The notes below the pieces were generated by a model. That model searched no databases, was not told where the DNA came from, and saw only the letters and a list, made by a program, of their open reading frames with translations. Below, piece by piece: positions 1-29,172 of a stretch of 32,166 bases of DNA; the stretch's first letter is position 1, and each line of letters starts with the position of its first letter. Source of the stretch: a virus; the IMG/VR virus record IMGVR_UViG_3300035670_000865, positions 1 to 32,166 of that record; one strand, 5' to 3'. Both the position numbers and the translations under genes were made by a program.

Positions 1-3000
1 CTCCGCGAACAATTACGGAGTTAAATTCAGCATTTCCATCACACCCAATTTTCCATCCACGCAATCCAGATGCGTAATCACAAGTATAAACACAACCTGC
101 ATTATGGATTGTTATATTGTTGGAATAAAAACATGTAGAATTGAAATTCCATCCGGCAATTATTGCACACGATTCGGAAATTTCAAAAAGTCTATTTGTA
201 CCACAAAATGCTGCAACACCTCTTCTTCCAGTCCAACCAGAACCAGGATCATAAATTTGTCCAAGTGTTGCAAAACTACACCATCCTCCATTGTAACAAC
301 CAGTGTAAATTGAACCGCATTGGGATGTTAAATAAATATTGTAATTTCCAGAAACGCTGTATAATTCATTGGCAGAAATACACCACCCACCAATAAAACC
401 AGAACAAGATGTAATAGATCCAGTAAAACATCCATCTGTTGCACAAATCGTTCCAATAACAGTTAATGTGCTTCCATTCCACGACAATGCAGGAGCGGAA
501 CTTCCACCCATCGCAAAGCATCCTGCGGCAAGATCAAAACAAGAACCTGCACTTGTTCCCCAATTTGCAGATTGGATTACTCCACCAACAATGTATCCAT
601 TGTTTGTCCAAAGACCATACCCACAATAACCAGAAATACCATCAAGATTTCCAAGACGAACTTGTTTTGTAGTTCCTGCCCAAGGTGTCGTTCCATTTGT
701 AAAAACTTCAACGAATGGATAACAATCATTATCTGAAACTTCCACACAACACCAACCAGCAATCGTATAAATGTCAACAGCACCAGTACAAGCCCCACAT
801 GTCGAAACCCACGGGGAAGCAACGGCAATTCTTGTAGCATCTCCAGTCATAGCTACGCGATTTCCAAAGCGTAAACAGAGTGCAGAATCACATGCACAAA
901 CATCTGGAGTGTAACGACAATACCATGCAGAACAATCAGCACACCAATCAAATATATTTATTCGACCACGGCACGTATCTTGTAATACCGCAGATAAAAC
1001 CATCGTATTTCCACTATAATCGGTACTAAGCCAGTTATAACCATAATTACCAGCAGCATTACAATAAGAAAATGCCGAATTAGCTCGTTCTGAATATGTT
1101 CCACCTGAACGATCAAACGTATAAATTCTACCCATGTCGGTATATGTCCCATCCCAAGCTGCGGCATCAACCAACATAATAGAACCATCACAATTTAATG
1201 CCAGACCATTCCCGAACAAATCTCCAGACCCTCTATCTGCTGGAACAACTCTTTGAACACAAACCCAACAATTTGTAGCACATCTTTGATAAATAAAAAC
1301 CTCTCCCCATGATTGAGCACAACCATGAGAAATGGCAATTACTTCGGAATCAGCAGAAATTGCTACTTGTAATCCAAACATCCAATAAGAAGTTCTTCCC
1401 GATAATGCCGAAAGACATTGTTGTAATAAATGCCAGCAACTATTTATCGTATCCCAACAATAAATGTTTACTTCGCCAGCATCGTCATGAAAAAGAATAT
1501 CATTTCCGCTATATGCAACAACCATAATAGAACCATCATCATTTAAACTAACACTTTGTCCAAATTCGGGACTTATTCCATAAGTATCACATCCCAACAT
1601 TAAACATGAATGCAAACACCATGCAGAAACACCACAACATTCATAGACATGGACTTTGCCATAACAAGCACAGGCACATCCCGCCCATCTTGGGGAGCCT
1701 ACTGCAAGAAATCGACCATCCCCACTAAATGCAAGGCCACGCCCGTAGCATTGACAAATACAAACATCGGCACTAGGAGGCAATAAACGACATTCATAAC
1801 TGGGACTACCATATAAACAAAATACACAACAAAATTCGCCAGAATTACCAGCCCCAACAATCCTAACACCTCCTCCTGTATTTAACGGACCATAATTAAC
1901 AATAGTACTTCCAGCAGGGATAACGATTCCACAACAACCACATTGTAGACACAAATGATACAAATAATAACTTGTACAATCACTTGCGCTCAAAACAGTA
2001 CTCCATACATCCTTTACAGAAGAACCAATATAACCCTTAAATCGCAGAACATCCCCTACAGCAAAAACTGGCGTATTTAATCCAGATATCAAATCTGTAC
2101 AAATATCATAAGTGGCGGCTGTCGTTGCTGGAAATTGAAGCGTAGCTGCTGAATTGACGGTTAATTGACCTCCAACAGCATTCAAAGAGTTTCCTTCGAA
2201 ATTTGCTGATCTCAATGTACCTCGAATCAATGCCTTTGAAAATTCTGCACAGCCGTTACAATCAATTTGCCAACCACAAGCCCCAGAAGAATAATTTCCT
2301 GTTCTGATATTTCCTGTGCTATCTAAAATGATATTTGCTGAACACAAACAATCTGTTCCAATCGTCCAGCCGCCAATGAATCCACACGCAGCACACATCG
2401 TTCCAATAATGGTTACATTTCCACTTGCATCGATATCTACTGTTTTTGTTGCACCGTTCCATGCTTGAATGCCATTGGCATTAAACAAAACACCAGATAC
2501 GGCACCATTACCAACATCACAACAAGTTCTGAAATCTTTTGCAATAATTTGATTTGTTGTGATATGGTCCGAATAAATATTGCAAGCATAGATGTCATCA
2601 CAAGAAACTTTCAATGGAGTAGCACCGGCACTCCATGTGCTTTGCGCGGAGCAGTTTCCAGTTAAATCGACAGCAATCGCGGAATAACAAATACATCCAT
2701 AATTAAGCGCAGAAAGCTGATCGGTAACGAGTGTTGTATTGTAACATCCAACAAGTTCTTGGGCACAACCATCACAAGAACGATAAACCATAAAATGAGA
2801 GAAATCACCAGGAACACCACCAGAAATTCCTATTTGTATGGAAATACCACGTAATGTTGGCGAAATGGCATCGATGGAAGGAGTTCCAGGAGCAATAGTA
2901 TCTCCGCTTATTTCCAAATATGTTTCAGCCCCAGGCTGTCCATAATAATGACAATCTCCAGCAGAAACCGTAAGAGGAGAATAGACGCCATAAGGTGAAA

Positions 3001-4891
3001 TAGTTGTTGCACGAAAGTTGTAACAACCTGTAGGAAATCCTTTCCAGATTTCATCAAGGATGTCTCCTTGTGTTGAACCAAAATATTTCAAACATGTATC
3101 AGGTTGTCCTGATTCTTTAATATACAACGCAATCTGGTCGGCATTATATGTCGGTTTTGTAAATTCGGCATGAATTTTTACCTGAGTTGTACCATCGGCC
3201 ATCAACTCTGGATTGACACAAAGACAAGTCAAAACTGGTTTTTCTGGGATAGCATAAGCGGAATATTCATTTGGTTCTGGATCAGAAATAGTTCCAGGAT
3301 CGGAAAATGTATAAACTGAAGAATCATATTCTTTCAATTTTAATTGAGTTCGATCCTCGCCTTTTTTAATTTCAATTACTCGAAATTGTTTCAAAGACCA
3401 GCCAAGTTTTGGAGATGTAACCGTTACAAGACTTCCACCATCAAGAGTATCAGGAACTTCAACCTCTGTGATAATTTCAACAGTTTTTAATTGTTTAATT
3501 CCCTTTTTAAAATAATATTGTGCAAGTTTATGGGCACTTGTATCATCTCTCGAAAAAGAAAGCTCCAGGGTTCCAGTATTCCATTTCCCTATCCTTGTGG
3601 CATGGGTCGAATCGGCAAGATTCGTATCTCCAACAGGAGATTCTTCGTTGATCGAGGGTCGCTTATCCCATCTCCCATTGGTGTAATTCTTTTGATAGAA
3701 CAAGCGCAATCTATTGATCTGTGCGTCTATCGAAGGCTCTTGCCATGGATAGACGATGCAATCGTACCCGGATTCTCCAGTCTCATCAAAATTTGCCTCA
3801 ACTGCTCCCGCGACTGTATCGATTTTTAAATAAATCTTCCCAGAGTCTTCATAAACTGCTCCTTTCATGTGCAAAAGAAGCTCATCCAACCAAGCCCCAA
3901 ATTCCATTTTTCGATCAACAACACCGTCAATAACAATTCCCTGTGATGCCATTTCCGTAATTGCTGTGGAAAATTCTATATCACTTGCAGAAATTCCAAG
4001 ACCATAACCTTCATATCCGGTTGATGGTTTTGTGAAGAAATTGTAAAGCACTTGTGCTGGATTTCGCTCAGATGCAGTATCGGTAGCGTTGGCCAGACCT
4101 TCAATCTCAACATAAACTCTTGGAACAGATCCATCGCTCATGACTGGATCAATAGGATCTCCTGTTGCTTCATCATAAAATTGAATGTAACAAAAACCAT
4201 CCCAAGATGATGTTATGGAATCAACAACTTCTGGAGATCCAACAGACCCAGTTCCTCTAAAAATTCTCACTTTAATGTTTGATTTGTCTGGAGCAGGTTG
4301 ATAACCATTTTGACCTGTATCCACATCATACATTATAACTTTTTCAAAATAAACTTTTTTAATTCGATAAATTGGTCCAGAACATACCATGAATTCTGAG
4401 TTGACTTTATCAACCCACATTACAGGAACTTTATCGACATTTCCAATGACTATAGGAATTGCATTCCAATTTTCATTGATGCCATCTTCCCCATAGTAAT
4501 CGTATGCAATTTGGGCATCCGGCCAAGGTTCCGAAAGCCATTCATATCCCTTCTCACGAATTGTTAGATCAATTTCTTCCCCAAATGAATTGACTTGTGT
4601 TACTTTTCCTACAAATTTTTTAGTGCTATTTGCACCATCATCAAAATACAGAGTGAATGTTTGGTTCAAAAATCCATAAGAATCTTGCACAGTATTAAAT
4701 GCTTGATCCCTATTGTCGATTCTAATTTGGAATGTTCTTTGTCTATTTCCAGTTTTATCGCTAAATTCAAAGTATCTAGCGATATCAAATCCATTAACTA
4801 CTCTAGGCTCCCAAATTTGATTATTATAATCAAGAACTTCCGAAGCCATGTAATAGGTTACTGCATTGATTGTTGTCTCAATTCTGAGCAT
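1..4891 (-). CDS. Giant tail-tip / receptor-binding protein (J-like), C-terminus beyond left edge
   Basis: The frame is open without a stop from the ATG at 4891 to the window edge (1630 codons); I translated it codon by codon. The start follows a GGGGGAG ribosome-binding site, 11 bases after the preceding gene's stop. Residues ~1-550 look like a phage tail-tip attachment domain (central tail hub, J-like). Residues ~555-760 resemble two fibronectin-III-like domains. Residues ~780-960 and ~1470-1630 carry repeated GFIGGW / GW-x-I-x-C-(D/N)-G-x-AEF modules known to me from tail fibres. Residues ~1000-1395 form a beta-propeller-like FG-GAP repeat block. Cysteine content jumps from 3 in the first ~550 residues to about 80 in the next ~1080. 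Its position last in the tail cluster, after the tape measure and a distal-tail-like protein, fits a host-recognition protein. The exact receptor is unknown. Confidence 0.88.
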   Translation of the reverse strand, partial: MLRIETTINAVTYYMASEVLDYNNQIWEPRVVNGFDIARYFEFSDKTGNRQRTFQIRIDNRDQAFNTVQDSYGFLNQTFTLYFDDGANSTKKFVGKVTQVNSFGEEIDLTIREKGYEWLSEPWPDAQIAYDYYGEDGINENWNAIPIVIGNVDKVPVMWVDKVNSEFMVCSGPIYRIKKVYFEKVIMYDVDTGQNGYQPAPDKSNIKVRIFRGTGSVGSPEVVDSITSSWDGFCYIQFYDEATGDPIDPVMSDGSVPRVYVEIEGLANATDTASERNPAQVLYNFFTKPSTGYEGYGLGISASDIEFSTAITEMASQGIVIDGVVDRKMEFGAWLDELLLHMKGAVYEDSGKIYLKIDTVAGAVEANFDETGESGYDCIVYPWQEPSIDAQINRLRLFYQKNYTNGRWDKRPSINEESPVGDTNLADSTHATRIGKWNTGTLELSFSRDDTSAHKLAQYYFKKGIKQLKTVEIITEVEVPDTLDGGSLVTVTSPKLGWSLKQFRVIEIKKGEDRTQLKLKEYDSSVYTFSDPGTISDPEPNEYSAYAIPEKPVLTCLCVNPELMADGTTQVKIHAEFTKPTYNADQIALYIKESGQPDTCLKYFGSTQGDILDEIWKGFPTGCYNFRATTISPYGVYSPLTVSAGDCHYYGQPGAETYLEISGDTIAPGTPSIDAISPTLRGISIQIGISGGVPGDFSHFMVYRSCDGCAQELVGCYNTTLVTDQLSALNYGCICYSAIAVDLTGNCSAQSTWSAGATPLKVSCDDIYACNIYSDHITTNQIIAKDFRTCCDVGNGAVSGVLFNANGIQAWNGATKTVDIDASGNVTIIGTMCAACGFIGGWTIGTDCLCSANIILDSTGNIRTGNYSSGACGWQIDCNGCAEFSKALIRGTLRSANFEGNSLNAVGGQLTVNSAATLQFPATTAATYDICTDLISGLNTPVFAVGDVLRFKGYIGSSVKDVWSTVLSASDCTSYYLYHLCLQCGCCGIVIPAGSTIVNYGPLNTGGGVRIVGAGNSGEFCCVFCLYGSPSYECRLLPPSADVCICQCYGRGLAFSGDGRFLAVGSPRWAGCACACYGKVHVYECCGVSAWCLHSCLMLGCDTYGISPEFGQSVSLNDDGSIMVVAYSGNDILFHDDAGEVNIYCWDTINSCWHLLQQCLSALSGRTSYWMFGLQVAISADSEVIAISHGCAQSWGEVFIYQRCATNCWVCVQRVVPADRGSGDLFGNGLALNCDGSIMLVDAAAWDGTYTDMGRIYTFDRSGGTYSERANSAFSYCNAAGNYGYNWLSTDYSGNTMVLSAVLQDTCRGRINIFDWCADCSAWYCRYTPDVCACDSALCLRFGNRVAMTGDATRIAVASPWVSTCGACTGAVDIYTIAGWCCVEVSDNDCYPFVEVFTNGTTPWAGTTKQVRLGNLDGISGYCGYGLWTNNGYIVGGVIQSANWGTSAGSCFDLAAGCFAMGGSSAPALSWNGSTLTVIGTICATDGCFTGSITSCSGFIGGWCISANELYSVSGNYNIYLTSQCGSIYTGCYNGGWCSFATLGQIYDPGSGWTGRRGVAAFCGTNRLFEISESCAIIAGWNFNSTCFYSNNITIHNAGCVYTCDYASGLRGWKIGCDGNAEFNSVIVRG
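2..2400 (-). repeat. Duplicated GFIGGW / GW-x-I...AEF modules flanking the propeller
   Basis: The tail-tip protein has GFIGGWTIG at residues ~837-845 and GFIGGWCIS at ~1498-1506, with a weaker copy (IIAGWNF) near 1577. The partner motif occurs as GWQIDCNGCAEFSKALIRG near residue 875 and GWKIGCDGNAEFNSVIVRG at 1612-1630, at the window edge. The same module type is therefore on both sides of the propeller block, which looks like an insertion between duplicated fibre modules. Confidence 0.6.
725..1900 (-). repeat. Beta-propeller-like (FG-GAP) protein repeats inside the tail-tip gene
   Basis: Six units are recognisable, starting near residues 1051, 1110, 1172, 1226, ~1284 and 1342 of the tail-tip protein, a spacing of about 54-62 residues. 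Each has an opening strand like FG-x-x-(V/L)-A-(L/I)-(S/N)-x-D-G, then a hydrophobic strand, and closes with G-x-(V/I)-x-(I/V/T)-(Y/F), for example GKVHVY, GEVNIY, GEVFIY, GRINIF and GAVDIY. A weaker unit before residue 1051 (VRIVGAGNSGEF) could supply a seventh blade. The pattern matches FG-GAP/integrin-like propellers in general form. The blade count is inferred. Many loops carry Cys pairs (CACAC, CC, CADC). Confidence 0.65.
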
Positions 4892-5664: not shown

Positions 5665-8600
5665 TTACCTCGTTGTTCCAAAGATTTTTCTTTTAAGTTC
5701 TTCCAGCATTTCCCTTGCAGCAGGATCTCCGGTCTTAATTCTTGCAATCAAATCTTCATAAAGTTTTTCAGTATCTCTTGTTTTCCCAGCATCAATAAAT
5801 ACAACATCTCCCTTGAGGGATCTCTTTTCTTCCGCAACACGCAATCTCAAAGTTTCTTCAATTTTTCCAAGAGCTTCTTCCAATTTTTTCGAAGACTCTT
5901 CCGCCTTTTGCTTCAAATGTTCTGCTCTTTCTGTCATGAGTGCAAAAAGTTCTTCATGTGCAGTATAAAAATCTTCTTCGCCTTCTTTTGAAGTTTTAAT
6001 TCTTTCCAAAATTGTTTCTTTTTGGAAATTAAACCACACTTCCCATGGATCTTCTCCAGACATCATTTCATCAAGGAACCCTCCAGAAATTCTTGACAGG
6101 TCATTCATAACCTGAAGATTTTTCATTTCTTCTGCAAGACCTGGAATTCCAAAATCAATCCCAACATCCGGCTTTAGTGTTGCAAGAGCATCGCGCACAT
6201 CATAAATGATTCCCTGCACATCTCCCTGTGATTCAAACCCTTTGAAAAGATCAAATAGGTTTGCTGCAACATCAGCTTCCATTACTTGTTGTTTGATGTA
6301 ATAAAACTTTTCTTGCAATGCTTCAAGTGGAGATGCCCAATTTATGGAAGATGCAAGATCGTTAATTGAACTGATACCAATTCTTGTCCAATCATTTATC
6401 TGATTGGCCCAATTTGATACCATTTGATTTTCTCGTTCACCAATATCTAACCCAGCATTCTTCAATGAATCTTGAGTATCCTTGTCAATTCCAGGAGAAA
6501 GCCAAGCGTCGGCCAGGGCTTGTCTATCGGTTTTAAATTGATTGATCTGTCTTAGTTCAATTTCACGATCAGACTGGATTGGATTCATTCTATTGTAAAT
6601 CCAATCGGCTTGACGTTGATTGAAATCTGCCGTCTTTTTATTATCGGTATATGCATTGACCATTTGTGCAGCACCTTCAAAATCTTCACCAAGAAGCAAA
6701 GATTGAAGTTTTGTAAAATCAAATCCACCACCACCCTGAGCCATAAGATTCTTGACATTTCCAATCAATGAAATAACGCTATCAACAGCTTCATTTCTAA
6801 GATCAGCAATGCTGTTTTGAAGTTCTAAAGATTGTTGTCGTTCCAAACCTGCGACATTTAACTGTTCTTTTGCTACATCCATAGTGCTAATAAGAAGATC
6901 AAGATTATTCATGTAAACTTCGGTTTGTGATGAAGAAATTGAAGAAATTTTATCGCGAATCATCATAAGAGAATTTGCATTGGATGCTTCCAAAAGGAGC
7001 ATGGCGATTTGTTCTTGAACTTCTTCCAAAAGATCTTCTGAAGTCGTCTGAATTGCAGTAAAAAACGCATTTCCAAATAGCGCATTGAACAGGCCCAACT
7101 TATCTAATTTCAATCCGGCAAGCATAGCATTTACATCTGGAAATAACTCATCCATAACGCTTACATCTTGACTAATAATTTTTTGATATTGAGCATTGGT
7201 GATGCTTACACCATTCAATCCTCCAATTGTTTTTGTCCCAATTGGATTGCTTGATGTAGTTGTATAATAATCATTTGTTCCACCATTCAGAGGATTCCCA
7301 CGAATTGTCGAAGTGTTATATGGATAAACTGGTAAAGTTGTCGATTGGAGATTCATCAAATACCCGTCGGTCCTCATTACATTCGAATCGCCAGACTTGA
7401 TTGCAGACATTTGTTTGTAAAGAGAATTTAATCTATCAAAATATCCAGAATTTCCACGAGTAGTCATATATTGTGCTGGTTGATTATATGCATAAGAAGG
7501 ACGAGGAATTTCAAGAGTCTGATATGTATTCAAGTACCTATTCCCAAGAAGTGATTGAATTCCAGAAAGTTTTTCCACACTTATTTCTTTTGAAACATTT
7601 TTCAATACAACAGTAAGTGCCTTTTGACGATCAAGAATATCAATCCAAGCGTTATACCATTCAAGTGTATTTCTGTCGAATTTTTCAGCGGCTTTGATGG
7701 CATATTGAATATCGATTTTTTCAATTTCAAGATCGGATGCCCCTCTTGCCAGAGCTTCAAATTTATCTCTAGCATGATCAGTTTCTACATATAGTTCCTT
7801 AATTGCATCTTTCATCAATTCTACTTGATTTCCAGCTTCATAGTATTTATCTCTAAATTCGTCTCGTTTTTCAAATGCGCCATTTTCTGTAGAATCTTTC
7901 CAACGAATGTATTCATTCGCCAAAGCATGATATGCAGTTTCTGCATATCCGAGTTCTTTTTCTGCGGCAGCGAGAGAGTTCTTAACCTTCAGTCTTTCCA
8001 ATTCCAATACATTTTTGTAATGACTTTGTGCTGCACGTTCAATTTTTTCATAATACGAATAAACTGTTGCATAAAAATTTGCAGTATCATAATGTCCGGT
8101 TTTTGTCTTTTTAGAGAAAATTCCATCGCCGGATTTAGTTTCCCAATATGCCGGTGCTGCAAACTGATGTGAAATCAAGTCCCTTTGCATTCCAGATGCG
8201 TAATATTTTTCTGCATCTGTGAACTTTCTTGCAGCACGTTGATTATATTCGTCAATTTTATCAGCATAGGCGGCTTTTGCTTCTCCAGTATGATCAACCC
8301 GACTACCAGAAAACAAACCTCCTGTTGAGAACAAGCGGTTTCCGACTGTTACAGCACCAAGAGCCAGAAGAGGGTGGGTCTGTGCCCATTTTGCAACACC
8401 ACCAAGAAGCCCTGTTCCAGAAGACGCAGATTTTGCAAGAGTTGCACCGGCAGCACCATTGATAATTCCACCAATTCCTCCCCCTCCACTTGCCGTGATG
8501 AGTCCACCCATTCCACCACTTACTTTTGAGACAACACCACCAAGTCCTCCACCTGCTGCTATGTCAGTAATTGTGCTGATGATCCCACCAGGGGAGCTTT

Positions 8601-11600
8601 TATTGTTTCCACCACTACCACCACCAAACAGATTCCCAAACAGATTGGTCAAAAGTCCGCCGGAACCTCCACCACCTCCAAACAGATTGGATAGGTTGAA
8701 TCCACCATTTTGATTGAAACTAATTCCAAAAACCAAATTGATTGCAGACATTGCCATGATTTTTGCAAGAACTCTGAGCAATGTGTCTTTAATTACATCT
8801 GCAACATTTTTGAACATGTCGCCAATATTGCGAATGCTTCCCTTCATTGTATTGAAAAAGCTATCCTCAAAGGCGGAGTTCAAATCTGTTGCAAGAGTTG
8901 CTCCAGTTTCATACATCAATTCAGACCAGTTCTTGAATTCAGAAAGTGTTGAAGCAATCCCTGTGTTAAATGATTCTTTCGCCCCTCTTGGAGAATTTTC
9001 AAGATTTGTTTGATACTTTGTGAAAGCAAGGTTTCGAACTTCACGGTTTCCATTTGCCATAATTCCAGGCATTATTTTCACAAGATCGTCCATTCTTGTG
9101 AAGTTCATTGAATCAATAATTTTCTTCTGCCTTTCCATATTGTCTACATACGTTTCATATTCAATATTCAAATCATGTAGACGATTAGTTTCATCAGCAA
9201 GAGCTTTAACTCTATCAGACCTAAAAATATTTGTTTTTTTACCTAATTCGTATGCTTCTTCTAGTGTCATTAACTGATTCTGCATCAAGTTATCGATATA
9301 TTTAACATCAGCTTGGAAGTTTTCAAGTTCTTGCATATTTTTAAAACTTCCAAATGCTGTCATATATGCGCTAGCTTGTTGAAATGATTTTGTCATTAAA
9401 GATTTACTAACCGAACCTGTTTTAATTTGAGATTCTGTCATATTGTAAAATGAAAGATCTTCTTCAGTAATTTGAGAACGAAATAAAGCATTGGCGGCTT
9501 TCATATTGTTTTCAATAGCCTTTGGAATAATGTACTCCGCAATCATCCCAAAAATGTTTCCAAATATTTTTTCGAATTTCTTTGTCATTGGTTCTATGTT
9601 CAAAAATCCAAATTGTTTTTCTTTAAGAATTGGAGCTTTGATAAACATATAATCAAAAATAGGTGTTATGATTTTATTCATCATATTTGTAACAGAACTT
9701 CGAAGTTGGTTTTCTTTTTTAATACCAAATTTTCCCTGATTTGATTCGTCTTGAAAATTTTTCATCACTTCTTCATATTTTGTATCTCTAAGTAATGAAA
9801 TATCTTGAAATGAAGATGCCAGTGTGTCAAAAAACTTAATTGTACCATCACGCATTGCGGTCATCCTATCTGAAATTAAATCAACGACGATTTTAGGTTG
9901 TTCTGGAGACTTTTCTGGAGTTCTTCCAACAACCTTTTTAAAAGCAGCATAAATACCATTGTCCCATTTTTGAACCATATTTTCTGCAATTTCTCCAAGA
10001 AGTTCTATATGTAAATGTTTGGCAGTTGCATCCTTATTTGTATAAACTTCTTCTCCCATTGATTTCAAAAGAGCTTCATCCCAAAAGTTTTCTCCAGGTT
10101 TTTGTTCAAACAAAACTTTGGATGCTCCAATATCTTTCAAATTTTTTGCCATTTGAATAAATTGGACAGTATTTGCTACTTCCTTTGTTAATCCACCGAT
10201 ATCAAATGCTTCTCCAGTGTAGTGTTTTGATTTATCATTATCCCCTCTAAAAACAGATGAAATGCTCAATTGATCTCCAAAAGTTTGTTTCATTGTTTCA
10301 TGAATATAATACATTTTTTGCATATTAGCATCAGACATAGTTCCTTTTGTCAATGGTCGATACATTTCATTTATTTTATTTTTATCATAATTTTTCTGCA
10401 ATTTTGCGAAATTGCTTTGAAGAGTTTCTGCTTCATAATTTCCTTTTTGGAATGAATCAAAAATTTTCTTGAAAACTTCTGGAACTTTCGCTCCAGTTGC
10501 AATCATTCCTTCGATTTTTTCAGCAAGTCCTTCAAAAGTACCTTCAATATTCTTTGTGGCAAGATCAGCATTATCCATGTGCTCTCCATAGATAATATTC
10601 ATGATCCCACCATTACTTTTCATAAAATCATAGAAATTAAGAACGTTTTCTCTAAATTCGAGAAAATCTTTATTAACAGAATTGAATCCAAACTCTGTTG
10701 CTTGGCCTTTCAAATCTGGACTTGAAAGAGATTCTACCATATATTTTAAAGTATTCCAATTTTCTCTCTTTCCTTGAATTGCATAAGCAAGAGATTCTGG
10801 AGTAGTTGCACCAAATGGATTCCTACTGGAATCTTTTCCAGCACTTTTCAAAAATTTTCCACCAACATCTGAAAGTTGGCTTTGTAGTTTTTTTCCAACA
10901 TCACTCCCATAAAGATAATCCGCTGCAAGTTTCATATTTTTTCTAATAGATTCATAAGTGACAGCAACCACTCCTGCAACTGCTCCGATTGCTGCTGTGA
11001 ATGTGAATAATGTTTTTCCAATTGTAGTTGACAAGGCCACCATGGTTCCAAGGAATAAATTTGTCAAAGAAAGTATTAGATTTTCTACAGTTCTTTTGAT
11101 ATCCCCAGCAATGTCTTTGATTCCTTTGACAATATCAGTTCCTCCAAAAAACCAATAATAAAACAAGCCCTTTCCAACTGTTACATTATCGATTTTCTCT
11201 GTAAAATCTCCAAAAATTCCAGACAAATCCTGGATCAATGGTTTAATCATGGCCCCAGCTTTTTGGAAATCTGTTACAATGCTTCCAATAAGTTCTTTTA
11301 CATAAGAAAAAATATCTTCTATAACTTTGCCACCCTTTCGAAATCCATCAAAAATCCGATCTTGAAGATCTCTATCTTTCACAATTTCCTTAATAACCCT
11401 GTAGATATATGCCATTTTTGATGAAATCTTCTCAAGAGCATTTGGTAAATCATTGAACATTTGACTATCGCCAAATGCTCTTTCGATCAAGGATTGAAAC
11501 TCAGTTGCAATTTCTTTTATCGAATTGTAAATATCAATGAAATCATCTGAAATCTTTTTGACAAATGGAGCAAAACTATCACTATTTGTGAATTCCATGA

Positions 11601-13983
11601 TTGCATCTTGAATTTTAATAAGATCATTCATGAAATAATCATAAAACCCAGCCTTACCAATTGCAGCCTGAGTTTTTGTCATTTCACCTTGAATTTTTGA
11701 CAAAACAGAACCAAATTGCCTAGATGCCATTTTCAGAGTTTTCTCATCATACATTGAAGTGATATACCGCTCCAACGCTGGAAGCATTTGTTCTGGGTCA
11801 TTTTTCACTTCCCGGAGAGGCTTCCCATCTGCCGTCATGATGAGGTTGACGGGGATTTCAAACCGTCGTTTCAGGGAGAGAAGATCTCCCGACATCGCTT
11901 CGCGGAGAGAGAAGATGGCACCAGAGATACCCCATTCAGGTTCGATCTGTGAAAGACCAAGGGCTATGTTCCAAGTGGACTTCAAGACATCCTCGGTCCT
12001 GGAAGCATCCATAAGCATCTCTCTGATCGGTCCAATAAGAGCAAACGCCTTTGTTGCTTCATAGACCTTATCATAGGCAACAGGAAGATCCTTGGCGATC
12101 TTGAAGGACTTTTCCATGATTTCATTGACGCCAGTCTGGGTTTTCACCATGCCCATCAATCCGATTTCATAACTTCGGATTTTATCTGTGGAAATGATAA
12201 CTCCAGTTGCAAGATTTTTGAACATGGCAGACATTGCCGCAAATGCAGCAACAGCAGTAGCAGCAACAGTTCCCAAAACTTTCAAAATAGTTTTAAGTCC
12301 ACTTACAACATTTCCAGCAACTTTTAGCAAAAGTTTAAATGCATCAATTGGCACCAATATTGCATTTTTGAGAGCAATAAGACCTTGCATTGCTCCCTTT
12401 GACATTTGTTTAACACCATTACCGAATGCTTCAAGATCAGGTCGGATAATATTGAATGCATTTCTTACATGTTGTAATGCTTGTCTTAGTGGTTGAAACC
12501 CAGGAAATGCTGCACCACCCATTCCCAAAAATCCACTTCTGGAACTTCCGGTTTGGTATTTTTGCATTTGTTCCAATGCTTTTTTAAGTTCATCGAACGC
12601 CTGACCATAAGCACCTTTTTTTACAGGGCTTGCTTCTTCTTTTGCTCCACCTTTCAACAAAGCCCTTTCGTCTTTTATCATCCTTTTTAACAAATCTTGT
12701 CTTCTTTTTCTCTCAGAAATAATTTCATCAGTCATCTTTGACTCAATCTTCGAAAGTTGTGCAATACGAGATTCAGCGTCTTTCATTGCAAGATTTTCTT
12801 CTTGAACTTTTGCAGCCTGAGCTTCCCGTGCTGCTCTATTTGCAGCATCTTGGGCATCAAGAGTTTGTTTCCACCATGCGGCATAACTATTTCTTCTTCT
12901 TTCCCGAAGCGCATCCATTTCTGCTGAAATTCTTTTTTCATTATCAACTTCTGATTTCTTTTGTGCTTCAAGAAGTCTTTGAAATTCTTGTTCGTATTTT
13001 ACTTCTTTTGCAGCATTAACATTCATCATTGTAAGTCGATCTTGAAACATTTTTTCTTCTGCAAGTTTTCCCCATTGCAGAATCATAAGCCTCTTCATTT
13101 GACCTTCTTGGACAACTCTTGCAATTCTTTCATTATCTTTTGCCAATAAAGCCGCTTCATTCATCAAATTCTGCTTTTTAAGCTCTTTCTCTGCCAATAT
13201 TCCAGCAAGAACTACTTTTAATCTAAAGGCACTTCCTTCTTTAATTCTTGATGCAATATCGGTATTTTGTTTCGCAAGATCTTTCATTTCTTGCGCGAAC
13301 ATTGCAGCACGCTCTGCCCTAAGTTTTGCAGCATATTCTTTTCGAATCTTAGAATCTTCTTGTATAAACAAGCCCTTAACGGCCTTTCCACCCTCTCCCA
13401 TTCCTCTATAACTTTGGGACATCAATCTTTGCAATTGTCTTTCTTTTTCCGCAATAGTTTTATATTTAGATAGTGATCGTTCCCACTCTTTTATTTGCAT
13501 TTCCCTATATTTTCTAAACGAAGCAATTTGCTGTCTGGCCTGTTGTTCATTTACAGCACCTTGGCCAAATAACGCGGCAATCCCAGCCGTTCCAGTTTTA
13601 GATGTAGCTTTTTTGACTTGTTTATTCGCTTTATCCAAAGCCTTTACGACTGTTTCAACCAATGTCTTAACAGCGGAAACGTCCATGTTTGCCGAACTAA
13701 TAACAGTTTTCGTTGTGCCTTTCATCGATTGGATAAAAGATTGTCCAAGTTTCTTGAATTCATTGTCAAAATATTTTTTGAAGGAGGTTTGCTTGCCAGA
13801 ACCGAAGAATGCTTTTTTCAAAGCACTATCAAAGTCTATATTCAAGTTTGAAACAGACTTTTTAAATCCATCCAAACTCTTTTTAATATCATTGAGTTTA
13901 TTTACAAACGCTTCAAATGAAGGCTTATCTACCTTCGCCTCAACGACATGTGTTTGCTTTGTTGTTTGACTTCCCCGTGGCAT
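5665..13983 (-). CDS. Tape measure protein with embedded M15-type peptidase domain
   Basis: This 2772-residue protein sets tail length and is expected inside the tail tube. I chose the ATG at 13983, with GGAGGG seven bases upstream, over the in-frame GTG at 14025, which has no such site. Residues ~1-500 are charged, alanine-rich coiled coil. Hydrophobic stretches lie near 561-590 and 974-1011, as expected for a protein that enters the membrane. Residues ~1205-1335 hold a peptidase-like signature: S1243-x-x-R1246, H1254-x2-G-x-A-x-D1261, and H1323-L-H1325. Residues ~1700-1870 include a conserved tape-measure C-terminal segment (FKNVADVIKDTLLRVLAKI) followed by a glycine-rich linker. More helical and coiled-coil sequence follows to the end. 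It sits directly after the G/GT chaperones, as in lambda-like phages. At roughly 1.5 angstroms per residue the tail would be about 0.4 micrometres long. Confidence 0.93.
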   Translation of the reverse strand: MPRGSQTTKQTHVVEAKVDKPSFEAFVNKLNDIKKSLDGFKKSVSNLNIDFDSALKKAFFGSGKQTSFKKYFDNEFKKLGQSFIQSMKGTTKTVISSANMDVSAVKTLVETVVKALDKANKQVKKATSKTGTAGIAALFGQGAVNEQQARQQIASFRKYREMQIKEWERSLSKYKTIAEKERQLQRLMSQSYRGMGEGGKAVKGLFIQEDSKIRKEYAAKLRAERAAMFAQEMKDLAKQNTDIASRIKEGSAFRLKVVLAGILAEKELKKQNLMNEAALLAKDNERIARVVQEGQMKRLMILQWGKLAEEKMFQDRLTMMNVNAAKEVKYEQEFQRLLEAQKKSEVDNEKRISAEMDALRERRRNSYAAWWKQTLDAQDAANRAAREAQAAKVQEENLAMKDAESRIAQLSKIESKMTDEIISERKRRQDLLKRMIKDERALLKGGAKEEASPVKKGAYGQAFDELKKALEQMQKYQTGSSRSGFLGMGGAAFPGFQPLRQALQHVRNAFNIIRPDLEAFGNGVKQMSKGAMQGLIALKNAILVPIDAFKLLLKVAGNVVSGLKTILKVLGTVAATAVAAFAAMSAMFKNLATGVIISTDKIRSYEIGLMGMVKTQTGVNEIMEKSFKIAKDLPVAYDKVYEATKAFALIGPIREMLMDASRTEDVLKSTWNIALGLSQIEPEWGISGAIFSLREAMSGDLLSLKRRFEIPVNLIMTADGKPLREVKNDPEQMLPALERYITSMYDEKTLKMASRQFGSVLSKIQGEMTKTQAAIGKAGFYDYFMNDLIKIQDAIMEFTNSDSFAPFVKKISDDFIDIYNSIKEIATEFQSLIERAFGDSQMFNDLPNALEKISSKMAYIYRVIKEIVKDRDLQDRIFDGFRKGGKVIEDIFSYVKELIGSIVTDFQKAGAMIKPLIQDLSGIFGDFTEKIDNVTVGKGLFYYWFFGGTDIVKGIKDIAGDIKRTVENLILSLTNLFLGTMVALSTTIGKTLFTFTAAIGAVAGVVAVTYESIRKNMKLAADYLYGSDVGKKLQSQLSDVGGKFLKSAGKDSSRNPFGATTPESLAYAIQGKRENWNTLKYMVESLSSPDLKGQATEFGFNSVNKDFLEFRENVLNFYDFMKSNGGIMNIIYGEHMDNADLATKNIEGTFEGLAEKIEGMIATGAKVPEVFKKIFDSFQKGNYEAETLQSNFAKLQKNYDKNKINEMYRPLTKGTMSDANMQKMYYIHETMKQTFGDQLSISSVFRGDNDKSKHYTGEAFDIGGLTKEVANTVQFIQMAKNLKDIGASKVLFEQKPGENFWDEALLKSMGEEVYTNKDATAKHLHIELLGEIAENMVQKWDNGIYAAFKKVVGRTPEKSPEQPKIVVDLISDRMTAMRDGTIKFFDTLASSFQDISLLRDTKYEEVMKNFQDESNQGKFGIKKENQLRSSVTNMMNKIITPIFDYMFIKAPILKEKQFGFLNIEPMTKKFEKIFGNIFGMIAEYIIPKAIENNMKAANALFRSQITEEDLSFYNMTESQIKTGSVSKSLMTKSFQQASAYMTAFGSFKNMQELENFQADVKYIDNLMQNQLMTLEEAYELGKKTNIFRSDRVKALADETNRLHDLNIEYETYVDNMERQKKIIDSMNFTRMDDLVKIMPGIMANGNREVRNLAFTKYQTNLENSPRGAKESFNTGIASTLSEFKNWSELMYETGATLATDLNSAFEDSFFNTMKGSIRNIGDMFKNVADVIKDTLLRVLAKIMAMSAINLVFGISFNQNGGFNLSNLFGGGGGSGGLLTNLFGNLFGGGSGGNNKSSPGGIISTITDIAAGGGLGGVVSKVSGGMGGLITASGGGGIGGIINGAAGATLAKSASSGTGLLGGVAKWAQTHPLLALGAVTVGNRLFSTGGLFSGSRVDHTGEAKAAYADKIDEYNQRAARKFTDAEKYYASGMQRDLISHQFAAPAYWETKSGDGIFSKKTKTGHYDTANFYATVYSYYEKIERAAQSHYKNVLELERLKVKNSLAAAEKELGYAETAYHALANEYIRWKDSTENGAFEKRDEFRDKYYEAGNQVELMKDAIKELYVETDHARDKFEALARGASDLEIEKIDIQYAIKAAEKFDRNTLEWYNAWIDILDRQKALTVVLKNVSKEISVEKLSGIQSLLGNRYLNTYQTLEIPRPSYAYNQPAQYMTTRGNSGYFDRLNSLYKQMSAIKSGDSNVMRTDGYLMNLQSTTLPVYPYNTSTIRGNPLNGGTNDYYTTTSSNPIGTKTIGGLNGVSITNAQYQKIISQDVSVMDELFPDVNAMLAGLKLDKLGLFNALFGNAFFTAIQTTSEDLLEEVQEQIAMLLLEASNANSLMMIRDKISSISSSQTEVYMNNLDLLISTMDVAKEQLNVAGLERQQSLELQNSIADLRNEAVDSVISLIGNVKNLMAQGGGGFDFTKLQSLLLGEDFEGAAQMVNAYTDNKKTADFNQRQADWIYNRMNPIQSDREIELRQINQFKTDRQALADAWLSPGIDKDTQDSLKNAGLDIGERENQMVSNWANQINDWTRIGISSINDLASSINWASPLEALQEKFYYIKQQVMEADVAANLFDLFKGFESQGDVQGIIYDVRDALATLKPDVGIDFGIPGLAEEMKNLQVMNDLSRISGGFLDEMMSGEDPWEVWFNFQKETILERIKTSKEGEEDFYTAHEELFALMTERAEHLKQKAEESSKKLEEALGKIEETLRLRVAEEKRSLKGDVVFIDAGKTRDTEKLYEDLIARIKTGDPAAREMLEELKRKIFGTTR
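9978..10371 (-). other. M15/VanY-like zinc peptidase domain within the tape measure protein
   Basis: The translated region contains SVFR, then HYTGEAFDIGG seven residues later, and KHLHIE about 60 residues beyond. This order and spacing match the S-x-x-R ... H-x(2)-G-x-A-x-D ... H-x-H zinc ligand pattern of M15-type D,D-carboxypeptidases and L,D-endopeptidases. By family knowledge such domains cleave peptidoglycan peptides, and in a tape measure they would help the DNA channel cross the cell wall. The three zinc ligands (H1254, D1261, H1325) are present. Substrate is inferred. Confidence 0.75.
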
Positions 13984-14004
13984 ACATTTCCCTCCAAAAG
14001 AAAA

Positions 14005-14027
14005 AGGTGGAACTAACCGTTCCACCT
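14005..14027 (-). terminator. Intrinsic terminator directly in front of the tape-measure ribosome-binding site
   Basis: A perfect 9-bp inverted repeat (AGGTGGAAC / GTTCCACCT) with a 5-base loop is followed on the minus strand by TTTTTCTTTT, then GGAGGG and the tape-measure ATG. The stem overlaps the TAG stop of the T extension (14026-14028). It should partly limit transcription from the tail tube and chaperone genes into the 8.3-kb tape-measure gene. Confidence 0.7.
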
Positions 14028-20240: not shown

Positions 20241-21410
20241 TTAGCTCCCTGTAACCGTAATCGTTCCCAAAAGATCCCCGACAGTGACCTTCATAGCAGC
20301 ACGCGAGAGGATTGCCCGAGTCTTCACGAAGGTATCGGGGTCCTGGAAAGTGTCGGAGAAATAGGAGAGGATGTAAGGCGCGAACACAAACGCGGTATCC
20401 ATCCAGTTCCCGGGGTTGTTGTATCCCATGAGGATTGTGCCGGAAAGGAAGGGATCAACATAAACACGCCAGCGAGAATTCAGAGTTCCCATGAAGTAGC
20501 GACCACCAGTAGCAATCACCTTTTCGTCAAAGGAAACTGAATCGGCACGGAAGCCGCTCATCTTGTCAACAAACGCAGCCTGATCAGCAGGAAGAACGAT
20601 GAAGTTCGTTCTGCGATACCGCTTCTTGAAGATGGCGTTGTCAACGTCGATGAACTTTTCATACAGCGTTTCCATCCAATACTTCCGGTCTTCATAGGTC
20701 AGACCAGCGGGAACGGTCATGTCGAAAGTTGCAGAACCACCAGTTGCTCCATCGATCATCGCCTGAAGAATGGTGCGGTCCCACTCCCGGACGATTTCCG
20801 AAGCGAGGGCAAGAGAAAGTTCGCTTTCGGCATTCAAACCATGGTAAGCATAGAGATCCTGCTCAGATTCCACGGTCCACTTGCTTTTCAGCTTCTTTTC
20901 GGTTGCACTCACATCCTCCGACGTGATAACGAGCTTGATTTCCTTGATGGCGGTTGGGGAGCTTTCATTGTACTCAACGTTATCACCATAGGTGCGCTTG
21001 GAGTGAATGGAAGTACTCAGGGAAGTGCCATCATCAGCACCAGTACCACGCTGAATGTCGTGGTAGAAAACCTTCGCGGCTGGCTGGGAGATCGGCTGAA
21101 TGGAAATGAGTTCCCGTGTCATCATGTTGGGATACACTTTCCGAATCAAGGGAAGTTCTGCCGTAACCATCGTGGCGATTGCCGCATTCTTGGTCATGGT
21201 TTCTTCCAAAGATTTCCCTTCCAGATTTCGGGGATCAATGCGGTGAATCTGTGCGCGATTCTGCACAAGGTTGTCAAGCAGAATCATGAGCTTATTCTGC
21301 TCGTATTCTGCCATTTTTGCATTGCCTGAATGATGCCCAACGCCTTCAAGCAGATGCCCGTAACGGTTTACAAGTTCTTCATTTCTTTCGAGGAAAGAAG
21401 CAGAAATCAT
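20241..21410 (-). CDS. Major capsid protein (T4 gp23-like, HK97 fold)
   Basis: This 389-residue protein resembles T4 gp23 in its conserved start of the mature region: AAIATMVTAELPLIRKVYPNMMTRELISIQPISQPAAKVFYHD, compared with the gp23 stretch around 'IPNLIAFDICGVQPM'. It contains no cysteine. Residues 1-70 (helical and charged) probably form a delta-like propeptide. L68-E69-E70 fits the (L/I)-x-E cleavage rule of gp21-type proteases, near residue 65 as in T4 gp23. The gene is richer in G+C and in preferred codons than its neighbours, fitting high expression. AAAAAGGAGA precedes the ATG, and a strong terminator follows. It is the shell-forming subunit. Confidence 0.92.
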   Translation of the reverse strand: MISASFLERNEELVNRYGHLLEGVGHHSGNAKMAEYEQNKLMILLDNLVQNRAQIHRIDPRNLEGKSLEETMTKNAAIATMVTAELPLIRKVYPNMMTRELISIQPISQPAAKVFYHDIQRGTGADDGTSLSTSIHSKRTYGDNVEYNESSPTAIKEIKLVITSEDVSATEKKLKSKWTVESEQDLYAYHGLNAESELSLALASEIVREWDRTILQAMIDGATGGSATFDMTVPAGLTYEDRKYWMETLYEKFIDVDNAIFKKRYRRTNFIVLPADQAAFVDKMSGFRADSVSFDEKVIATGGRYFMGTLNSRWRVYVDPFLSGTILMGYNNPGNWMDTAFVFAPYILSYFSDTFQDPDTFVKTRAILSRAAMKVTVGDLLGTITVTGS

Positions 21411-23267: not shown

Positions 23268-24382
23268 TATTTCTCTCCAAAGATTATAGAGTTTTCTGGA
23301 GAAATATTCATACTAGTTCCATCAAGCATTTTTACAACAACATTCATAGGATAAACCTTTTCAACTTTTCCATAAATCTGTCGATCTCCAATGAATGCTG
23401 AAACGAAATCGTTTTGTTTCAGATCTGAAATTTTTTCAATCATAGAAAAATTAGGATTTTTCAAGAATGACTTCAACTCAAAAACAGGAGTTTTAACAGG
23501 CAGCAATAAATTGATAGCAAAATTTCCACGAGAAATAAATCCACGCATTTCTCCTGAAAATGCCTTTGCCGAATCCATGAACTTTTTGTCTTTTGTTGCT
23601 TCGAACATAAGACGATTGTAGTAATAAGAATTTCTCATACTTACAATCGTCAAATATTCTTCTTCACTTGGCACGTTTCCACTTTTCTTCGAATTTGAAG
23701 TTATGAACTTCAAATAATCACTTTTTTGACTCTGGCCATTGATAACAAAATTCAAAGAACAGCGGCAGTTGGAGAGGCAGGTAGTTGCTCCTGATTTTGG
23801 AACACCTGGGAGGGTCCTTTTTGTGTAAGGATTGCCAGCGACATTCAGCAGACAATCAATACAATGCTTATCTGTTGTTCCAAGCGTCCAGATGATCAAG
23901 ACATCCTCTGGGAGGTAGAGGAGATTCCCAAAAGTGAACATACTATCCAGGCTATCGGAATACATTCTCAAACGTCTTTGATATGGCATCCTTCCAGAAC
24001 CATTAACTATGTCTTTTGCAAAGTTTGCCATAAACCCCATTTCTTTAGTTGTTTGTTGGACAATAAATCTTCTTTCGTCATCGGAAATTCCAGCAATTCC
24101 TGTGTCGAACATTTTTCCGAATGTGAATGCATCTGTGAAATGGGTTTTTATTGCATCTCTTTGAGCCTGAAGATAGTCATCTTTTGTCATTTTACCTGCG
24201 CGTAATGCTGCCATATTTTTGCTCAAAGAATTGTAATATTGGCTCTTTGATTTTTGATATGCTTTAAGAATGTCGGATCTACGTTTTTGTGGAAGTTTTG
24301 AAAACGTAGGGACACCTTTATTCTTTTTCAATAGATTTTTTGAAAACTTTTCAACAACTTCCACAAGTTGTTCGATGTTCAT
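23267..24382 (-). CDS. MuF-like minor head protein
   Basis: This 371-residue protein directly follows the portal gene (TAATG overlap). Residues 1-140 are helical and charged. Residues ~170-215 carry a cysteine cluster, WTLGTTDKHCIDCLLNVAGNPY followed by TTCLSNCRCSL, which is typical of phage head morphogenesis (MuF/SPP1 gp7-like) proteins with the pattern D-x-x-(H)-C-x-x-C...C-x-C. The C-terminal part (VKTPVFELKSFLK...) is beta-rich with no clear enzymatic motif. The role in such families is to bind the portal and help DNA packaging or ejection. Family membership is inferred from motif and position. Confidence 0.75.
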   Translation of the reverse strand: MNIEQLVEVVEKFSKNLLKKNKGVPTFSKLPQKRRSDILKAYQKSKSQYYNSLSKNMAALRAGKMTKDDYLQAQRDAIKTHFTDAFTFGKMFDTGIAGISDDERRFIVQQTTKEMGFMANFAKDIVNGSGRMPYQRRLRMYSDSLDSMFTFGNLLYLPEDVLIIWTLGTTDKHCIDCLLNVAGNPYTKRTLPGVPKSGATTCLSNCRCSLNFVINGQSQKSDYLKFITSNSKKSGNVPSEEEYLTIVSMRNSYYYNRLMFEATKDKKFMDSAKAFSGEMRGFISRGNFAINLLLPVKTPVFELKSFLKNPNFSMIEKISDLKQNDFVSAFIGDRQIYGKVEKVYPMNVVVKMLDGTSMNISPENSIIFGEK

Positions 24383-26040
24383 TAGAAGTCTCCAATTTTC
24401 GTATTTGTAAGTCTGACAAGATCATACAAAGTGTTTTTCAATTCTCTATTTTTTCCAACAATCTCCATAAACTTTTCGAACTTTTCGAACTGCTTTTCTG
24501 GAAGTTTTTTCTTGAAGTATTGAAGAATTTCCGACTTCGTTCTCTTTCTAGGTTGAGGCATTGGTTCTTCTTCATCATCAACATCAAATTCATCGGTATT
24601 CACACCAGTCAAATCTTCCGCATTTGCCAAGTTTGCATCGAATTCTGCGGCAAACTCTTCTTCTTCTGCATCCAACCTTTCAATAAGTTCTTCCATTTCG
24701 TCTTCAGACATTCCAAGAATGTTCATGTAAATGTATTTGTCATCGATGATAGCCATTTCGTTTGACATGATCGATGCAACTTGGAGTTTCAAAAGCTCAA
24801 TTTTCCATTTTCTTTCTTCATCAATTGTGTTGAGTGTTGGCCATTCAATGAAAAGATCAAAATTACCATTAACGCCTTCAATGGTGAGCATGTTTCTGTA
24901 AACGCGAACAATCTCAGGTTCCATAATGGTCTGACATCTTCGAATCATTCGAAGAAAAGAAATATATTGGATGTCGGAAGTTGATTTTGAATTGATATCA
25001 TCTTCTTTCCCAATCAATAGTTTTGGAACACCAGTTGAATAAATCAACTTGTTCTGGAAATATTCGATGTCTTCGATGTTTTTTCCGCTTTGTGCATTGT
25101 TTGACAAAGGAATGACACTTGCATTCGACCCCTGTCTTGTTGGAACAAGAATATCCTCAACAACTGAAAGAGGGTTGTATTGCCAAGACATCTTGCCGGT
25201 TGCAGGATCGATGTATTTCCTTCGCATCAGACGCTTTTTGTAGTGATCAAGGTACGTCAGAGCTTCATCGCCTGTGAGTTCTCCGACATCCACAACAACA
25301 GCGTAATTCTGATTTGCTCTGGAAATGCGTGAGATCATCACACCCTCTTCCATAAGCCGAACTTGCCGATAAATAAGGCGAGATTTTTCAATTTTTGAAA
25401 CACCTTTGCCACATTCCGCCGATCTTGCCCGGTCAATGTTGATTGAAAGATGCATCACATCTTCAGCATTTAATGCAGCCTCTTCTTCGCCCATATCGTT
25501 CACTTGGCGAATCATTGGTTGTCTTTGTTTCAAACCACTTTTCATATTTACAGAAATGGAATCAATTGGAATGTTTCGAAAACCAAGAACTTTATTTCTA
25601 ATTTTATTTACAACAATTTCTTCAACATTGTCACCATATTTCAGAGCTTCCCGAGCCAGTGACCAAAACTCTTGCTGAAATGAAATCCTGCTATCAATTT
25701 CATCAATCTTTGCTTGAACATCTTTATCATGGGATTTAACTTTAAAAACTCTTGAACGGTTGACGTTATCTGGATACACAATAAAGTCAGCAGTAACATC
25801 CAATGAAGCTGTGATTTCTGGAACTTCATTGTCCATTTCTCTGTAATCTTTGTATTTTTCTCGATCTTCGGCTTGCCTTCTGAGTTCTTTATCGAGAATT
25901 CCTCGCCATGTGTGGTAATAAACACTACTCAATCTTTCGTCGTCGTCGTCATTTGAAGTTTTCGACTTAGGAGGCGCAGGGTCTTCCTTTGTCCCCATTC
26001 CAATAACTGTTTTCAATTTATTCCAAGCTGATTCAAACAT
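24382..26040 (-). CDS. Portal protein (T4 gp20-like)
   Basis: This 552-residue protein starts at the ATG at 26040 with GGAGG upstream. The ATG at 26067 would overlap the terminase end and lacks such a site. The stretch DILVPTRQGSNASVIPLSNNAQSGKNIEDIEYFQNKLIYSTGVPKLLIG matches the T4 gp20 pattern of P-x-R-x-G, then PL-x-x...G-x-N-I-x-D-I-x-YF. A long helical stem, residues ~400-450 (EERKWKIELLKLQVASIMSNEMAI), follows. The C-terminal region is acidic then basic (VDDEEEPMPQPRKRTK). It forms the twelve-subunit portal at one vertex and is the docking site for terminase. Confidence 0.92.
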   Translation of the reverse strand: MFESAWNKLKTVIGMGTKEDPAPPKSKTSNDDDDERLSSVYYHTWRGILDKELRRQAEDREKYKDYREMDNEVPEITASLDVTADFIVYPDNVNRSRVFKVKSHDKDVQAKIDEIDSRISFQQEFWSLAREALKYGDNVEEIVVNKIRNKVLGFRNIPIDSISVNMKSGLKQRQPMIRQVNDMGEEEAALNAEDVMHLSINIDRARSAECGKGVSKIEKSRLIYRQVRLMEEGVMISRISRANQNYAVVVDVGELTGDEALTYLDHYKKRLMRRKYIDPATGKMSWQYNPLSVVEDILVPTRQGSNASVIPLSNNAQSGKNIEDIEYFQNKLIYSTGVPKLLIGKEDDINSKSTSDIQYISFLRMIRRCQTIMEPEIVRVYRNMLTIEGVNGNFDLFIEWPTLNTIDEERKWKIELLKLQVASIMSNEMAIIDDKYIYMNILGMSEDEMEELIERLDAEEEEFAAEFDANLANAEDLTGVNTDEFDVDDEEEPMPQPRKRTKSEILQYFKKKLPEKQFEKFEKFMEIVGKNRELKNTLYDLVRLTNTKIGDF

Positions 26041-26051
26041 GGTGCCTCCTG

Positions 26052-28085: not shown

Positions 28086-28114
28086 ATTCTATTTCATTTA
28101 ATAGTTAAATGCAA
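28086..28114 (-). promoter_or_regulatory. Possible leftward late promoter with palindromic spacer
   Basis: On the minus strand TTGCAT (28109-28114) and TAGAAT (28086-28091) are spaced by 17 bases. The -10 is good, the -35 poor. The perfect palindrome ATTTAA-TAG-TTAAAT (28096-28110) lies in the spacer and may bind a regulator. Late phage promoters often need an activator, so a weak -35 is not decisive. This is a guess from position and pattern. Confidence 0.35.
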
Positions 28115-28129
28115 CATTCGGAGGAAAGT

Positions 28130-28543
28130 ATGTCAGACAAACCAATTTTAGATTCTGGTAAGCGACATGATTTTCAAACAGGGAGTCAACGAGATATTCA
28201 ACCAGGAAAGGGTCGGCCTGATTTGTTGCCTTTCATGGCGATTATGCGTGTGTCCAAAATTTATGAAGGTGGTGCCATCAAGTATTCCGAAAGGAATTGG
28301 GAGCTTGGTCAACCATTGTCTCAATATTTAACTTCTGGGTTGCGACATTTGTTCAAATGGATTATGAATTGGCAGGACGAAGATCATCTTGCTCAAGCCC
28401 TTTGGAATTTCATGTGTCTGGTTGAAACTCAAATGAGAATCGAAATTGGGATGCTTCCAGAAGAATTGAATGATATTCCTTCTGGCTTTTTCAAAAAGTT
28501 TCCAAATATGGCAGACTTGATGGAAAGATGGTTTAAAAAATAA
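28130..28543 (+). CDS. dATP/dGTP diphosphohydrolase-like protein (dGTP_diPhyd_N / DUF5664)
   Basis: This 137-residue protein starts at the ATG at 28130, with GGAGG five bases upstream; an earlier in-frame ATG at 28109 has no site. Residues ~20-105 match the family pattern KGRPDLLPFMAIMRVSKIYEGGAIKY, then RNWELGQPLSQYLTSGLRHLFKWI, then EDHLAQALWNFMCLVET, with the conserved E-x-G-A-x-K-Y, R-H-L and D-H-L-A-x-A-x-W-N residues of an all-alpha NTP pyrophosphohydrolase-like fold. Members hydrolyse dATP/dGTP to monophosphates and PPi. Together with ThyX, the HD protein and NrdD/NrdG it adjusts the nucleotide pool. Its activity here is inferred from the family. Confidence 0.82.
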   Translation: MSDKPILDSGKRHDFQTGSQRDIQPGKGRPDLLPFMAIMRVSKIYEGGAIKYSERNWELGQPLSQYLTSGLRHLFKWIMNWQDEDHLAQALWNFMCLVETQMRIEIGMLPEELNDIPSGFFKKFPNMADLMERWFKK

Positions 28544-28544
28544 T

Positions 28545-29171: not shown

Positions 29172-29172
29172 A

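Follow-up and report, generated by a model that had tools for sequence, protein, structure and literature searches.

Phage virion proteins are usually poor in cysteine. The locus described herein raises the question of why a phage tail-tip protein carries hardly any cysteine in its N-terminal third and a very high number in the remainder, and what these residues could do in a tail fiber. The stretch of DNA analyzed, referred to as the window, is an entire metagenome-derived IMG/VR record of 32,166 bp.

Cysteine content and domain layout of the tail-tip protein

The tail-tip open reading frame is located at 2..4891 on the minus strand. Its translation has 1630 amino acids and is open at the contig end. 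Residues 1-550 contain 3 cysteines (0.5%), and residues 551-1630 contain 80 (7.4%). The remaining proteins of the window have 74 cysteines among 8817 residues (0.84%), and the cysteine share of the fiber part is about 9 times that of the other proteins of this phage (binomial p = 6.6e-48 against the 0.84% background). The maximum-likelihood change point for cysteine density was found at residue 555, around nucleotide 3227. The sequence-only reading of this DNA had claimed that the enrichment is confined to the distal two-thirds of the protein and starts where the hub ends, and both claims are borne out by these numbers.

The fiber cysteines are encoded by 73 TGT and 7 TGC codons. TGT occurs 73 times in frame versus 11 and 32 times in the other two phases. 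This in-frame excess indicates that the enrichment acts at the protein level and not on DNA composition. Together with the 0.84% in the other window proteins, it agrees with the earlier statement that no genome-wide bias is involved. One cysteine is found in the 2786-residue tape measure protein and none among the 389 residues of the major capsid protein. The features of the tip protein and of its neighboring genes are as follows.

2..706, minus strand: distal tip module, residues 1396-1630, running off the contig end; 16 cysteines (6.8%)
707..1831, minus strand: FG-GAP repeat region, a probable beta-propeller, residues 1021-1395; 36 cysteines (9.6%); identified by PF14312 and by tblastn to LR797314.1
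1832..2407, minus strand: stalk/PF09327-like tip module and the next domain, residues 829-1020; 13 cysteines (6.8%); Pfam score 21 bits, cut-off 22
2408..3241, minus strand: FnIII-like domains and linker, residues 551-828; 15 cysteines (5.4%); fold name proposed from the sequence and a weak model
3242..4891, minus strand: putative tail-tip hub, residues 1-550; 3 cysteines (0.5%); from translation, 55-56% identical to the related records L002 and L005
4903..5661, minus strand: 252-aa tail gene upstream of the tip; 2 cysteines; 51-53% identical in relatives
5665..14025, minus strand: tape measure protein, 2786 aa; 1 cysteine

The best explanation for this layout is a siphophage J-like tail tip composed of a hub, FnIII-like domains and PF09327-type tip modules, with the distal part forming an extracellular fiber. 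The N-terminal hub role of residues 1-550 is a presumed one. The gene order of tape measure, a gene of about 250 aa and tip is common to the window, L004 and L005. PF09327 (curated cut-off 22 bits) scored 21 in the window, 17.3 in G003, 24.7 in L056, 47.1 in Vibrio phage SBP1 and 59.1 in L064; these relatives are introduced below. The highest cysteine density of the tip protein is in the FG-GAP region (36/375), which passes the PF14312 curated cut-off with 33.3 bits versus 23 over residues 1209-1259. On sequence comparison, L056, L063 and L070 have an uninterrupted domain at this point, into which the region appears to have been inserted in the window. A weak match to an M15 peptidase, under the curated cut-off, was located within the tape measure at residues 1215-1293.

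Structure prediction was also applied. The AlphaFold model of residues 541-1017, built with five sequences, had a mean pLDDT of 46.5, with the first FnIII-like domain alone at about 70-80. The FG-GAP region modeled alone had a mean pLDDT of 35.3, and both models were of poor quality. A sequence search of the PDB returned a weak match to the J-like tail tip 23gd (E 0.014), and the same search with the propeller region returned nothing convincing.

Other genes of the window were identified as well. A T4-type portal (PF07230) and a phrog_138 major head protein, at 24382-26067 and 20241-21410 on the minus strand, accompany the long tape measure; a contractile sheath had no match among the window genes searched. 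On the plus strand, 28109-32026 holds a nucleotide-metabolism cluster with a dATP/dGTP diphosphohydrolase N-terminal domain, ThyX, an HD domain, class III NrdD and a radical-SAM/4Fe-4S protein, which is probably the NrdD activase. The cluster suggests an anaerobic host.

Cysteine-rich fibers in relatives and in cultured Vibrio phages

The hub retrieved IMG/VR records 3300000227_000026 (L002/L004) and 3300028388_005416 (L005), as well as DYJV01000028.1 (L056), a contig of MAG SulCav_AS07-7. A tip-module pattern search brought L063 (G003 as a complete record of about 120 kb), L064, L065, L068 (the genome of SBP1) and L070. As the pattern demanded one cysteine, these records say nothing on how frequent the trait is. 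L056 and the Vibrio phages K479 and K482 were retrieved without any cysteine requirement, the latter two by homology of their tail proteins to SBP1 gp062. Viral contigs were also scanned with the whole protein and with the portal, and no relative was confirmed. A pattern demanding both cysteines of GWQIDCNGCAEF gave 0 matches, the pattern CGxIGGW brought mostly glutamine-amidotransferase-like ORFs and chance matches, and the distal fiber of L056 had no match to phages by tblastn.

A cysteine-rich distal fiber is present in the window and in the three hub homologues with sequenced distal fibers, L056, L063/G003 and L070. The L056 tip has 1990 residues, and its distal part reaches 10 cysteines per 50 residues. 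The G003 tip is full-length with 1957 residues and 70 cysteines; the FnIII-like domains proper contain none of these, and many lie further on. In L070 the hub is present, the FnIII-like domains have 0 cysteines, and residues 900-1300 have about 4%. The stretch matching window residues 551-828 contains 0 cysteines in L005, L056 and L070, 3 near its end in G003 and 15 in the window; the enrichment of this stretch is nearly private to the window. The tape measures have 1 cysteine in 2558 residues in L056, 1 in 2517 in G003 and 0 in 3028 in L070, next to 1 in 2786 in the window.

The same trait was found in cultured phages. Gp062 of Vibrio phage SBP1 (MK301608, Schitoviridae) has 41 cysteines in 925 residues. 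The tail proteins of K479 and K482 have 39 in 1643 and 41 in 1756, respectively, nearly all within the first 950 residues. Among the other SBP1 virion proteins, the capsid has 1 cysteine, the tape measure 0 and the portal 1; the virion RNA polymerase (L099:28420-39066) has 0 in 3548 residues, like the near-cysteine-free tape measures. In eleven tail proteins taken for comparison from further cultured phages, most of them containing the same module, cysteine makes up 0.35-0.54%, and the two protein sets are clearly apart in cysteine content. The contrast drawn earlier between GWxIDADGNAEF and GWQIDCNGCAEF was verified, as cultured phages have GWAIDADGDAEF, GWAIDVNGNAEF and similar sequences. 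Assembly error, which had been named as a possible source of the enrichment, does not explain it: the homologues L056, L063/G003 and L070 and the tail proteins of SBP1, K479 and K482 are also enriched. These data confirm that the cysteine enrichment is real, recurring and at the protein level.

Further observations were made on these relatives. In SBP1, a second tail fiber, gp067 (L081:16250-18790), has 14 of its 15 cysteines in residues 401-800. The C-terminus of the G003 protein resembled a tail-fiber chaperone domain; no Pfam match was obtained, and this assignment was dropped. The L056 phage contig (coverage 351) is binned in a Candidatus Methylomirabilis MAG, a binning that tells little of its host. 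At L056:15503-15970, covering tip residues 1835-1990, the GVYG unit is repeated in tandem seventeen times, with the constant codons identical in DNA. In the variable codons of the units, bases 1 and 2 change and the third is kept (ACT/TGT/TAT/CAT/ATT; GGC/TGC/AAC/GAC/TCC). By its codon pattern, this array looks like diversification aimed at certain codons.

Cysteine placement and candidate explanations

The cysteines had been described as grouped in CC, CxC and CxxC motifs. The count does not support this description: no significant excess over random placement was found (CC 5 versus 5.8 expected, CxC 9 versus 5.9, CxxC 9 versus 5.8), and the spacings are at chance frequency for the same cysteine density. 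Metal-site motifs and CxxCH, the spacing of heme arrays, are absent from the fiber. Hydrophobic-phase analysis of the residues flanking cysteine gave no clear signal, and inspection of the FG-GAP blades by eye gave no consistent hairpin register of cysteine pairs.

On comparison of alignment columns, the window and L056 share 8 cysteine columns versus 0.9 expected (p 2e-7), the window and G003 share 9 versus 1.1, L056 and G003 share 13 versus 2.1, and SBP1 and K479 share 12 versus 1.0 (p 3e-13). Column sharing between divergent relatives is 6-13 times above chance, for part of which common descent accounts. K479 and K482 share 38 of 42 columns. Across divergent pairs, the cysteine Dice value was 0.26-0.59 versus an identity of 0.44-0.60, which places cysteine near the average residue and well below Trp or Gly; in SBP1-K479, cysteine is slightly above average (0.59 versus 0.52). 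Sharing above chance together with average conservation indicates that cysteine density is kept better than cysteine position.

The favored explanation, to which we give an even chance, is that the distal fiber is cross-linked by many redundant disulfides. Cysteines have been loaded into the fiber, where they mostly substitute for Ser, Thr, Asn and Ala, residues that are small or polar, and the fiber would fold in the host cytoplasm in the reduced state. After release, many cysteines would pair within and between fiber chains; the pairing, the multi-chain state and the timing of oxidation are postulates of this model, as is the stiffening that the redundant cross-links would bring. Redundancy would let single cysteines appear and vanish at constant total density and would thereby account for their drift in position. 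Threaded or ejected proteins, such as the tape measure and the SBP1 virion RNA polymerase, are almost cysteine-free, and the need for threading or ejection would explain their lack of cysteine.

The location, density and recurrence of the cysteines, their shared columns and their near-absence from threaded proteins are direct observations. The restriction to the distal fiber, the recurrence in Vibrio podophages, the shared columns, the in-frame-only enrichment and the precedent of Agrobacterium phage Milano count for cross-linking. The lack of a spacing motif counts against it, as does the only average conservation, which is unlike that of typical structural disulfides. Glutaredoxin or thioredoxin family members had no match in the phage records searched, which also counts against it. 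In addition, a class III ribonucleotide reductase, an oxygen-sensitive enzyme, is present in the window phage and in G003. Their hosts therefore probably live anaerobically, a condition that is poorly suited to disulfide formation, and this is a further point against cross-linking.

The main rival, which we regard as a tentative alternative, is a thiol- or metal-binding adhesion surface; it accommodates the random spacing, the average conservation of cysteine and the class III reductase better. Unpaired or metal-bound external cysteines would bind to a host surface that is thiophilic or carries metal, or would react with thiols on that surface, and bulk thiol density would be selected. Positional turnover at the average rate with density kept is as expected here, and the probably anaerobic hosts of two members would leave thiols reduced. 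In window residues 551-828, cysteines occupy positions that are Ser, Thr, Asn, Ala, Lys, Arg or Gly in relatives, and small or polar residues tend to be replaced more than hydrophobic ones (hydrophobic fraction 0.14 versus 0.33, permutation p 0.06, not significant). However, the absence of CxxCH and of metal-site motifs counts against such a surface, the exposure of the cysteines is read from sequence, and column sharing above chance means that position matters somewhat.

The cysteines may also have no dedicated function. In a fast-evolving fiber, cysteine could be tolerated in place of Ser, Thr or Ala and accumulate through drift or through modules acquired from a donor that is itself enriched. 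Fibers swap modules and the internal copies of L056 are nearly identical; these points, with the average conservation and the random spacing, count for this reading. Nevertheless, drift should not repeatedly yield 7-10% cysteine in siphophage and podophage fibers when the comparison proteins stay at 0.35-0.54%, nor is the gain of 15 cysteines in residues 551-828 of the window, against 0 to 3 in relatives, expected from it. This reading is considered unlikely. Equally doubtful is the broader proposal that different phage groups, namely siphophages whose hosts are probably anaerobic and Vibrio podophages, independently evolved or exchanged thiol-loaded distal fibers in which cysteine density, and not fixed pairing, is selected. 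Such a fiber would be a redox-responsive or thiol-reactive adhesion surface, an attachment mode that is not known to have been described in tailed phages.

Targeted hypermutation by a diversity-generating retroelement or a similar system, making cysteine codons, is very improbable. The GVYG array of L056, with its 17 copies variable at codon bases 1 and 2 and nearly constant elsewhere, is what such a system could leave. However, the cysteines extend over about 1000 codons and the adenines of the constant repeat codons are invariant. A reverse transcriptase was found in 0 of 7 records, including the complete SBP1 genome, several of the records being fragments. An artefact of assembly, frame or codon reassignment is the least credible of all: although the window is a single metagenome-derived record whose end cuts the gene, the frame is open over 1630 codons, the trait is present in independent records and in deposited genomes of cultured Vibrio phages, and TGT/TGC is rare in all other window virion genes, contrary to reassignment.

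Comparison with known systems

In the open-access literature searched, there was no description of cysteine-enriched distal tail fibers and no report on the cysteines of the SBP1, K479 and K482 tail proteins. The cysteine-loaded distal tail fiber is apparently undescribed as a trait, though sequences with it have been deposited. The earlier claim of a pattern new to phage tail tips thus stands with respect to the literature searched; it is weakened by the SBP1 sequence (MK301608) already on deposit and by the known disulfide-linked virions of Milano. To our knowledge, Milano and its kin are the one well-studied exception to the cysteine poverty of virions, and their cysteines are spread over the whole particle.

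That a fiber has 5-10% cysteine at shifting positions, that this recurs in different phage groups and that the tape measure lacks it all point to selection acting on receptor-facing chemistry. If cross-linking is true, it would be a cheap way of stiffening a fiber outside the cell. If thiol or metal chemistry is true, it would be a new way of host attachment. SBP1 is cultured and its complete genome is deposited, so the question is open to bench testing.

J-like tail tips with PF09327 (Phage_Tail_Tip) resemble the window protein in domain order and module sequence, and the eleven comparison tail proteins differ from it by their 0.35-0.54% cysteine. Likewise, the FG-GAP protein LR797314.1 UFOVP1367_22 is 27.7% identical over window residues 1151-1375 and has 1 cysteine in 474 aa, versus 36 in 375 in the FG-GAP region of the window. 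SBP1 gp062 and the K479 and K482 proteins are similar to the window protein in being fiber-like tail proteins with local cysteine enrichment, and SBP1 carries a module common with the window (GWAIDCSGNAEF) in an otherwise low-cysteine virion. They differ in their N4-like podophage framework, in an overall cysteine content of 2.3-4.4% and in lacking the window-type hub.

The virions of Agrobacterium phages Milano, 7-7-1 and OLIVR4 are disulfide-linked (PMC10491603, PMC10811340, PMC12796354). Milano structural proteins have 2.4% cysteine, most virion cysteines are disulfide-bonded, and DTT removes the robustness of the particle (PMC10491603, PMC10811340). The Milano disulfides are intra- and inter-subunit, including those of the tail spike and the short tail fiber, and the cysteines are conserved among relatives (PMC10491603, PMC10811340, PMC12796354). 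Like the Milano group, the window has a fiber that is unusually cysteine-rich for a phage virion protein. In Milano, a myophage, cysteines occur across capsid, neck, sheath, baseplate and fibers, whereas in the window the 5-10% is limited to the distal fiber, where pairing is a proposal. The elevation in capsid and tail that characterizes Milano is not seen in the window, with 0 cysteines in the major capsid protein and 1 in the 2786 residues of the tape measure, while the window fiber is two to four times denser in cysteine than the Milano structural proteins.
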